A DNA stretch of 64,000 nt from Seiridium cupressi (Eukaryota; Ascomycota; Sordariomycetes; Amphisphaeriales; Sporocadaceae). Of this stretch, positions 49,935 to 60,798 are shown piece by piece. Below the pieces are notes generated by a model. The model had not been told where the DNA came from and searched no databases. It saw only the letters and a program-made list of their open reading frames with translations. The translations under genes and the position numbers were made by a program. How positions within the stretch are numbered: position 1 is the first letter of the stretch; every line of letters begins with the position of its first letter. The stretch spans positions 62,001-126,000 of the forward strand of contig JARVKI010000046.1 in the NCBI GenBank assembly GCA_036674765.1, read 5' to 3'.

Positions 49935-49960
49935 GGCTCAATGGTCTAGTCGTATGATTG

Positions 49961-50009
49961 GTTTGTGTACCTTTCCAGGTCGATATAACTTCGAACTGAC
50001 AGTTCATAG
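49961..50009 (+). other. GT-AG insertion 1 in tRNA-Pro (spliceosomal-intron-like)
   Basis: 49 nt at the D-arm/anticodon-stem junction. It starts GTTTGT, ends CATAG and has a CTGAC branch-like motif about 9 nt before the 3' end. The length matches the shortest mRNA introns of neighbouring genes (45-53 nt). Confidence 0.6.
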
Positions 50010-50058
50010 TCGCTTCGGGTACTCCCTCACGTCTACCGTGAATGTGACAGGTCCCGGG

Positions 50059-50108
50059 GTAAGTTACTCTCGAATCACTCTTCAGTGCAAGGTGTTAACC
50101 CACTACAG
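50059..50108 (+). other. GT-AG insertion 2 in tRNA-Pro (spliceosomal-intron-like)
   Basis: 50 nt between the T-stem 5' strand and the T loop. It starts with a perfect GTAAGT donor, has GTTAAC as branch-like motif about 10 nt before the end, and finishes CTACAG. The 3'-terminal G recreates GTTCAAATC, so the Pol III B box core stays intact. Confidence 0.65.
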
Positions 50109-50133
50109 TTCAAATCCCGGTTGAGCCCAACTC

Positions 50134-50139
50134 TTTTTT
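50134..50139 (+). terminator. Pol III T6 terminator of the tRNA gene
   Basis: A run of six T begins 6 nt after the discriminator base, followed by further T-rich sequence, which is the expected Pol III termination signal. Confidence 0.75.
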
Positions 50140-50462: not shown

Positions 50463-50626
50463 AGTACTCGACTTGAGATATACACTATCATAGATCGATG
50501 GTTTACATAAATGTAATTTATAAAGCTTACCAGATAGGATGAAGAATAATAAGATTCCCTTTCTTCTAAAATTTTTAATTATTTTTATATACAAAAAAAG
50601 TAAAAATTAAATTTTTTAAAATAAAA

Positions 50627-50629
50627 TTT

Positions 50630-50664
<35 letters not shown>
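50627..50664. repeat. T10-A28 homopolymer tract
   Basis: Ten T followed directly by 28 A within a generally A/T-rich stretch. It could be the tail of a retroposed element or simple slippage. Confidence 0.9.
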
Positions 50665-58177: not shown

Positions 58178-60798
58178 ATGGCGCCCAACGGCGTCCCCAA
58201 TGGCTCCAGTGCCATGAGGCAACCAGATCTTCACCTAGTAGTAGGTCAATCGTCCCCGGATCTATGCGCTCCCCTGACTAATACACCCGTGCAGTCCGAC
58301 GAAGACGCCGTCTACGAACAGGATATCCTGCGAGATCCGGGGAGCACGAAACCATGGCTGGCTTACATCGAGTTCAAGATACAGCACGGCTCCGTACACG
58401 AGCAAGCATTCATTCTCGAGCGAGCATGCCTACAACTTCCCCGATCATACAAACTATGGAAGATGGTGAGTAGACCCTGAAATTGTTTGCAATCTGAGTA
58501 CGTTGCAACTGGTCCCATGAGCAGAGACTGACCAGGCCATAGTACCTCCAATTCCGAACCAAGCATGTTTCGAAGCTGAACGCTGCCATCTTTGCTGTCG
58601 AATACCGGAAAGTGAATGCGCTGTTCGAAAGAGCCCTCATCTTGCTCAACAAGATGCCACGGATATGGGAGTTGTACTTGAAGTTCTTGCTCAAGCAACC
58701 CCTGGTGACCTTGACACGACGCACGTTCGATCGAGCTCTTCGCGCACTGCCTATAACTCAGCATAATAGAATCTGGGCGCTGTTCCGGCCGTTTGCGAAC
58801 TCGGCGGCCGGTGACACAGCTGTCAAAATCTGGAGGCGGTACATGCAAGTTCACCCCGAGGATGCCGAGGACTTCATCGAACTTCTCGTGCAGGTAGGCC
58901 TATACACGGAGGCTGTCAAGAAGTACATCGATATCCTCAACAACCCACGCTTCAACAGCAAGCAGAGCAAAGGCCACTACGAGTTATGGAGTGAGATGGT
59001 AGATCTCATAGTCGACCACGCCAACGAAATCGAGACGGGGCATGAAACGGGCATCGATGCAGAAGCCATCATCCGCAGTGGTATCGAAAGATTCCCCGAC
59101 CAGAGGGGAAAGTTGTTCTGCGGTTTGGCAACATACTGGGTTAGAAGAGGCAGCTTCGAGCGCGCAAGAGATATCTTTGAGGAGGGAATTACGACCGTCA
59201 TGACAGTGCGAGATTTCACATTGGTTTTCGATACATATGCGGAATTCGAAGAGTCCATCATTGGAGCCTTGATGGAGATGGCTTCCAAGAGGACAGAGAG
59301 CGGCGAGGAGGACTTGGACGCCGACTTCGACCTGGACATACGGATGATGCGGTTCGAGCAGTTGATGGACCGAAGACCATTCCTCTTGAACGACGTGCTA
59401 CTGCGACAAAACCCCAACACCGTTGCAGAATGGGAGAAGAGAGTAGCGTTGTGGGGAGACAACAAGCAGGAAGTTGTCCTAACCTACACGGATGCCATTG
59501 CTGCAATCCAACCAAAGAAGGCGGTCGGTCCCTTCCATCAACTATGGGCGAATTACGCAAAGTTCTACGAAAAAGGAGGCGATATACGCAATGCGAGGAT
59601 CATCATGGAAAAGGCAGTCAAGGTTCCCTTCAAGTCGGTCGCTGAACTGGCAGAGATGTGGATCGAATGGGCCGAGATGGAGCTTCGAAACGAAAACTTT
59701 GATGAGGCAGTCAGGATCATGGCCAAGGCTGTACAAGCACCAAAGAGGTCGACAGTGGACTATTTCGACGAGACCCTTTCACCGCAGCAAAGAGTGCACA
59801 AGAGCTGGAAGCTTTGGAGTTTCTATGTGGACCTGGTCGAATCTGTTTCTTCCCTCGATGAAACGAAGAAGGTCTACGAGCGCATCTTTGAACTGCGCAT
59901 CGCCACTCCGCAGACTGTTGTCAACTACGCCAACCTGATGGAGGAGCACCAGTACTACGAAGATTCTTTTAGGATCTACGAACGTGGGCTCGACCTTTTT
60001 AGTTGGCCTGTAGCCTTTGAGCTCTGGAACCTGTATCTCAGGAAAGCGGTCGACCGCAAGCTTGGTATCGAACGCCTACGAGACCTATTCGAACAGGCAG
60101 TCGAGTTCTGTCCGCCCAAATTTGCCAAGACGCTCTACCTCATGTACGGCAACTTGGAAGAAGAACGCGGCCTTGCCCGTCACGCAATGCGCATTTACGA
60201 CCGAGCGACCCAGGCCGTCTCCGACGAAGACCGCGCCGACATGTTCAACTTCTACATCACAAAATCAGCCTCTAACTTTGGACTGCCTTCTACGCGCAGA
60301 ATTTACGAACAAGCTATCGCTGCACTGCCCGACGAAGAGGCTAGGGACATGTGTCTCAAGTTCGCGGACATGGAGAAGCGCCTCGGCGAAATCGACAGAG
60401 CTAGAGCCATTTACGGCCACGCCTCCCAATTCTGCGATCCCAGAACCAACCCGGCATTCTGGACCAAATGGGAACAATTCGAGGTGCAGCATGGAAACGA
60501 GGATACGTATCGCGAGATGCTGCGGATCAAGCGCTCTGTCCAAGCACTTAAGAACACTGATGTCAACTTTATCGCCTCTCAGGCCATTGCCCGAAGCCAG
60601 GCTGCGAGGCAGCAAGCCGCAAATGGAGAGATTGACCAGGAGACTGCGGATGCGATGGAGCAATTGGAGCGACAAGCACGGGCACCTGCTGGCTTCGTGG
60701 CCAGTAGTACGGGAATTGCGGGCACGTTGACGCAGGATGAGCCGACACAAACTGTTAATCCCGATGCGATTGATATTGATGGGATGGACGACGAATGA
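58178..60798 (+). CDS. SYF1: Pre-mRNA splicing factor Syf1 (HAT-repeat protein, 3 exons)
   Basis: Exons 58178-58240, 58295-58465 and 58543-60798 give about 829 residues. The first intron is 54 nt and in frame; removing it (GTAGGT...GCAG) yields LHLVSDEDAVYEQDILR, as in Syf1 proteins. The rest is a chain of HAT (half-TPR) repeats, e.g. PWLAYIEFKIQHG, RIWELYLKFLLKQ, LWANYAKFYEKGGDIRNAR, FELWNLYLRKAVDRKLG and FWTKWEQFEVQHGNEDTYRE. The low-complexity C-terminus includes TADAMEQLERQAR. Syf1 is a scaffold of the NineTeen complex in the spliceosome. It is divergent from VMA8 and followed by about 470 bp before the next gene. Confidence 0.95.

Follow-up and report, generated by a model that had tools for sequence, protein, structure and literature searches.

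Can a tRNA gene carry introns of the kind that the spliceosome removes from mRNA? According to a 2026 review, tRNA splicing does not rely on the spliceosome (PMC13149111), and a 2014 review regards eukaryotic tRNA genes with insertions in the D or T arm as probable pseudogenes (PMC4090602). The question is raised by a tRNA-Pro(CGG) gene of the ascomycete Seiridium cupressi, which lies in a 64,000-nt stretch of DNA that we analysed at full length (the window; G000:C46:62001-126000) and which an earlier note had described as split by two GT-AG insertions in addition to a normal tRNA intron. On the basis of the window and the genome to which it belongs (45.36 Mb in 228 contigs, one assembly), we conclude that these inserts are real and occur repeatedly, and that spliceosomal introns within tRNA genes explain them best; this would place them in a known kind, the spliceosomal introns of non-mRNA transcripts.

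A tRNA-Pro(CGG) gene in four exons

The gene occupies positions 49935-50128 of the forward strand, as do all of the parts named here, and has four exons separated by inserts of 49, 23 and 50 nt. Exon 1 (49935-49960), which contains the A-box region, runs from the 5′ strand of the acceptor stem through the D arm to the first base of the anticodon stem. It is followed by a 49-nt mRNA-type intron (49961-50009) that starts with GTTTGT, carries a branch-like CTGAC 9 nt from its 3′ end and closes with ATAG. Exon 2 (50010-50019) supplies the 5′ strand of the anticodon stem and the loop with the anticodon CGG, and precedes the ordinary 23-nt tRNA intron (50020-50042), which ARAGORN places one base later, at 50021-50043. 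Exon 3 (50043-50058) holds the 3′ strand of the anticodon stem, the variable loop and the 5′ strand of the T stem. The second mRNA-type intron, the third insert of the gene (50 nt, 50059-50108), starts with GTAAGT, has a branch-like TTAAC 9 nt from its 3′ end and closes with ACAG; exon 4 (50109-50128) contributes the T loop and the 3′ strands of the T and acceptor stems. The coordinates, insert lengths, GT and AG ends and 72-nt product that the earlier note had given are confirmed.

Standard tRNA positions were counted from the anticodon, bases 33-35 of the 72-nt form being standard 34-36. On this count, only the 23-nt middle intron fits the canonical eukaryotic site, 37/38. The first insert falls at standard 27/28, and its junction can slide by one nucleotide, to 26/27. 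The third insert lies between G53 and T54 (G / TTCAAATCC; standard 53/54), where it interrupts the T arm as well as the B box. Another possible 5′ splice site for the gene, GTATGA, is in the D loop; we rejected it because its use would delete part of the D arm.

Recognition of the gene by software depends on removal of the outer inserts. When all three inserts are taken out, ARAGORN reports the remaining 72 nt as tRNA-Pro(CGG); when the two GT-AG inserts alone are taken out, it recognizes tRNA-Pro(CGG) with an intron at 37/38. It finds no tRNA in the unspliced gene or after excision of the 23-nt intron alone, and the raw window yields nothing from ARAGORN and nothing from Rfam at gathering scores. 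Downstream of the gene, the segment at 50570-50664 is strongly A/T-rich, with long A and T runs.

The spliced form was said to be a cloverleaf with all stems paired, and this is correct for the stems: 20 of 20 pairs form, including one G.U in the anticodon stem. The D loop departs from that picture. It reads AGTCGTAT, with CG at the place where the other six tRNA-Pro genes of the genome keep GG (AGCGGTAT or AGAGGAAT), and so lacks a base that we take to be the near-invariant G18. The same change is seen in the A-box region, TGGTCTAGTCG, in which C replaces the first G of GG. The unspliced gene has a B-box-like match, AGTTCAAATCC (50107-50117), rebuilt by the closing AG of the third insert together with the exon that follows, and a T6 run resembling a Pol III terminator (50134-50139) that begins 6 nt past the gene end.

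The earlier note had held that an intact tRNA-Pro(CGG) elsewhere, together with no spliced RNA from this locus, would make the gene an insertion-disrupted pseudogene. One such copy is present (L057, C3:429104-429201), with the ordinary intron only. Because the D-loop G18 is absent and this second Pro(CGG) gene exists, the window copy may be weakened; it could be weak, or on the way to decay, even if the related copies are sound, and we consider the chances that it yields a working tRNA to be roughly even.

Related genes with and without the inserts

A genome-wide search with the core of the tRNA-Pro D arm gave seven perfect matches and five with one mismatch, against none and one in two controls. 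All seven perfect matches are tRNA-Pro genes (one TGG, two CGG and four AGG), and four of them carry GT-AG inserts, five in total. The Pro(TGG) gene (L054) is intronless, and one Pro(AGG) gene (L058, on C16) has the ordinary intron only and shows an empty site. The three other Pro(AGG) copies (L056 and L059, about 10 kb apart on C38, and L061 on C59) have an extra insert of the form GTAAGC...CTAAC...AG, located in each case exactly after GATT (base 25 of 72, standard 26/27). The first insert of the window gene lies one base away from this site, and that base can slide.

The exons of L058, L059 and L061 are identical across all 72 nt. The inserts of L059 (60 nt) and L061 (59 nt), absent from L058, match in 48 of 65 aligned columns, with their ends and CTAAC kept. 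Identical exons around diverged introns fit removal of the insert from an RNA that is in use; conversion between copies could also keep the exons alike. In the five distinct spliced tRNA-Pro sequences, three of them representing classes that carry an mRNA-type intron, every one of the 100 pair cells is paired. Double changes occur at 9 of the 20 pairs, and neither value was equalled in any of 500 shuffles. Compared with the others, the window gene and L056 have double changes that preserve pairing.

A second tRNA family is also affected. One elongator tRNA-Met gene (L113, also listed as L050; G000:C13:124207-124363) contains the ordinary intron and a 52-nt mRNA-type insert, GTTCGT...TACTAAC...ATAG, at the boundary of the variable loop and the T stem. 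A Met pattern allowing up to two mismatches gave 19 matches versus 18 in controls; the three exact matches are Met genes, and the two others of these elongator genes (L114 and L115, on C20 and C185) have no insert and show the empty site. L113 has a U.G pair in the T stem where L114 has C-G, and its B-box-like match, AGTTCGAGCCT, is the same in the intronless paralogues. The search for GT-AG inserts in other tRNAs that the earlier note had advised adds three tRNA-Pro genes and one tRNA-Met gene.

ARAGORN calls L056 a tRNA-Leu and L059 a tRNA-Val, both miscalls, and misses L061, so that two intron-bearing genes are left blank and two others receive the wrong isotype. An Rfam tRNA search, in which 63 of 1321 candidates were scored, listed 65 matches, of which 18 are on a mitochondrial-like contig (C174); among the 44 that we read of the 47 elsewhere, the Met gene was the one with an mRNA-type insert. 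This list is far from complete, because it includes only one of the seven tRNA-Pro genes.

Pattern scans extended the search. A B box followed by a terminator was matched 222 times, several times per place, with 77 matches in controls; 35 loci among the matches listed (contigs C1 to C33) had no mRNA-type insert by eye, and ARAGORN called a tRNA in 19 of them, some of these calls being doubtful (L070, L077). L070, L077, L085 and L111 have tRNA-like B-box sequences with a common GGTGTAA-type 5′ part and may form a family of dispersed, tRNA-derived repeats. Searching for a branch motif ahead of a B box gave 25 hits versus 76 in two controls for CTAAC at 6-36 nt, 22 versus 78 for CTAAC at 36-66 nt and 52 versus 77 for CTGAC at 36-66 nt. 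The second of these recovers the three known Pro(AGG) genes; with all totals below controls, no further tRNA case was recognized by eye among the matches listed, which for CTGAC gave the sequence of 35 of the 52 hits. Among nine regions taken from the two CTAAC scans (eight from the first, one from the second), those on C87, C47, C122, C13, C28 and C7 (two) were set aside as not tRNA genes by eye, and one on C39 as an ordinary tRNA. A further region, L140 (C85:46960-47280), has acceptor-like pairing and a T arm, with a D arm that is not recognizable. A BLAST-type search with the 72-nt spliced tRNA, which is insensitive to split genes, found no match, and relatives were absent from the viral and genome contig collections, which are non-fungal. 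The survey may have overlooked additional cases, particularly genes that are split in the B box.

Splice signals, promoters and an intron in U6

All six tRNA inserts begin with GT and end with AG, as does the intron of a U6 gene (below) at its own ends. Each tRNA insert also has a branch-like YTRAC motif 9-14 nt from its 3′ end, which is CTAAC in four and CTGAC and TTAAC in the window gene. The 5′ site is GTAAGT or GTAAGC in four of the six; the first insert of the window gene (GTTTGT, with CTGAC) and the Met insert (GTTCGT) have the weakest 5′ ends and are off GTRNGY, which we adopted as the 5′ splice-site consensus. The third insert of the window gene combines a perfect GTAAGT with its TTAAC branch site. 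Insert lengths are 49-60 nt. Only one mRNA intron in the window was placed by homology, in SYF1, where the gap measures about 77 nt (pattern candidates were preset to 45-90 nt). The SYF1 protein (58543-60795) has 94% identity to those of Pestalotiopsis sp. NC0098 and Truncatella angustata, versus at most 91% for Hypoxylon and others, which identifies the host as a member of the Xylariales, probably of the Sporocadaceae, and excludes a basidiomycete or a lichen fungus.

These signals would seldom arise by chance. Random inserts of equal length were placed at the same sites, with slidable junctions, and scored for GT-AG ends plus YTRAC in the last 25 nt. The chance per site was 0.00009-0.00056 (200,000 trials each), with 0.00056 for the first and 0.00048 for the third insert of the window gene, and multiplying the chances over the sites gives a value below 1e-15 even when L059 and L061 are counted once. 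Shuffling of the introns gave similarity z-scores of 9.1 for L059-L061, 5.8 for L056-L059, 4.8 for L056-U6 and 3.0 for Met-U6 (with the U6 intron one base short). Such scores are inflated by common splice signals, and therefore only L059-L061 counts as clear common descent; that of L056 and L059 is doubtful.

Some features expected of a Pol III tRNA gene are retained. Every tRNA insert leaves a B-box-like match in place, and all lie between the A-box region and the B box except the third insert of the window gene, which is inside the B box. A run of 4-6 T follows all five intron-bearing genes, starting at +6 in the window gene, +7 in L056, +17 in L059, +15 in L061 and +6 in L113, and CAAC occurs within 20 nt upstream in four of the five (L113 is without it).

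The U6 genes offer a parallel within the same genome. An Rfam search (47 of 2623 candidates scored) gave three U6 matches. L052, on C33, follows the U6 consensus up to GCACTAAGG, is interrupted by a 50-nt insert (G000:C33:71786-71835; GTAAGC...CTACTAAC...CCTAAG, with a CTAAC branch-like site and 3′ AAG) and returns to the consensus with ATGACACGC, continuing to the end of U6 and a run of T. L051 (C55:27051-27158) has no insert and an intact ACAGAGAAGATTAGCA core (ACAGAGA), and is off the U6 consensus in its 5′ part and after GGATGACA; it scores 62.6 bits versus 60.8 bits for L052, which was scored across its intron. L053 (C12:574434-574548), also without an intron, scores 49 bits and has ACTGAGA for ACAGAGA, among other departures. 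We regard L052 as the principal U6 gene and the other two as divergent or decayed copies; L051 may be functional. As L051 stands uninterrupted beside L052, U6 splicing is not necessarily compulsory here. Because one of the three U6 matches holds an mRNA-type intron, spliceosomal removal of introns from Pol III transcripts is plausible in this fungus. The 28 matches to 5S rRNA above the cut-off (119-121 nt; 47 of 2256 candidates scored, two further matches being below it) contain no intron, and RNase P RNA has one match, of 352 nt.

Together, the paralogues with and without an insert and the U6 intron strongly support, at the DNA level, the proposal that a Pol III tRNA gene harbours spliceosomal-type inserts.

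Origin, processing and significance of the inserts

We consider it probable that the GT-AG inserts are mRNA-type introns which tRNA genes have gained alongside their ordinary intron and which the spliceosome removes. It also seems likely, as one joint claim, that two unrelated machineries act on a single Pol III pre-tRNA, the spliceosome at three kinds of site (where the D arm meets the anticodon stem, where the variable loop meets the T stem, and in the T arm) and the endonuclease at the anticodon-loop intron, and that tRNA copies gain and lose spliceosomal introns in the same way as mRNA genes. How the gene is transcribed and spliced, in what order, and what its product does are inferred from gene structure. 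Pol III would transcribe the whole gene, guided by the A box and a B box that is left usable; the spliceosome would act in the nucleus, excising the GT-AG introns before the tRNA folds or as it does so; and the tRNA splicing endonuclease and ligase would excise the intron at 37/38.

The strongest competitor holds that these are pseudogenes, that is, redundant and disused tRNA copies that have collected mRNA-type introns or intron-like fragments, with splicing absent or irrelevant. An insert-free copy is kept for each affected isoacceptor, and therefore none of the tRNAs is seen to require spliceosomal removal; the window copy is without its conserved D-loop G; and the 2014 review supposes that a D- or T-arm insertion in one of many synonymous eukaryotic tRNA genes marks a pseudogene (PMC4090602). 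Disuse, however, does not readily account for L059 and L061, the exons of which equal the uninterrupted L058 over 72 nt around diverged introns, although gene conversion could explain part of this. Nor does it predict that all stems pair in five distinct sequences, that the double changes in the window gene and L056 keep pairing, that three of the four Pro(AGG) copies have the insert or that the splice signals are kept. We regard this explanation as unlikely.

Alternatively, the inserts could be non-canonical tRNA introns that are cut by the tRNA splicing endonuclease, with incidental GT-AG ends. Archaeal tRNAs have introns at 25/26, next to one of the sites found here, and at 53/54, which coincides with another, and nucleomorph tRNAs have them in the D and T arms (PMC4090602). 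It counts against this reading that the eukaryotic tRNA endonuclease is considered in the same source to measure distance from the tRNA body. A bulge-helix-bulge test at the junctions gave low pairing scores, as it did for the ordinary introns used as controls. Against incidental ends stands the recurrence of GT, AG and a branch-like site in six of six inserts, with the chance product noted above, and we judge endonuclease cutting to be very improbable. An assembly artefact or chance, for which the use of a single assembly leaves room, has a negligible probability, given five genes on C46, C38 (two), C59 and C13 with different introns and the same signals.

The inserts can be compared with several known systems. 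Fungal U6 genes likewise have a short GT-AG intron with a branch site in a Pol III RNA, and U6 of S. pombe is spliced (PMC10484740). The difference is that the host RNA here is a tRNA, and that a single gene combines three introns belonging to two kinds. In S. pombe the intron is near the catalytic U6 bases, a placement for which the tRNA inserts have no counterpart. A later paper cites work whose title speaks of multiple U6 intron insertions in fungi. Fungal U3 small nucleolar RNA genes also carry normal spliceosomal introns in a small structured RNA, whereas tRNA genes have internal promoters and a splicing enzyme of their own. According to a 2017 paper, frequent interruption by an intron is known among small structured RNAs for U3 and U6 only, and tRNA is absent from that list (PMC5832005).

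The earlier note had named two further kinds of precedent. The rDNA of lichen-forming and other ascomycetes has spliceosomal introns in a non-mRNA transcript that are removed by the splicing machinery of the host (PMC8527467), but these involve Pol I and another RNA. Archaea, Cyanidioschyzon merolae and cryptophyte nucleomorphs have tRNA introns in the D and T arms, sometimes three per gene (PMC4090602, PMC3978253). Those ectopic introns are linked to the tRNA endonuclease and a bulge-helix-bulge or to no known mechanism, whereas the inserts described here have GT-AG ends and branch sites. The 23-nt middle intron is of the canonical eukaryotic 37/38 type, unlike the outer introns, which lie elsewhere and have spliceosomal signals. 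Searches of open-licence PMC papers, judged by title and the opening of the abstract, turned up none that reports tRNA genes with spliceosomal introns.

If the introns are removed, tRNA would be a further class of small structured RNA, after U6 and U3, to be spliced like mRNA, and the copies with and without an intron in one genome would constitute a natural experiment on intron gain. The spliceosome would then act on Pol III genes with internal promoters, and one tRNA would be matured by two unrelated splicing systems. It would also follow that annotation programs miss or miscall such tRNA genes.
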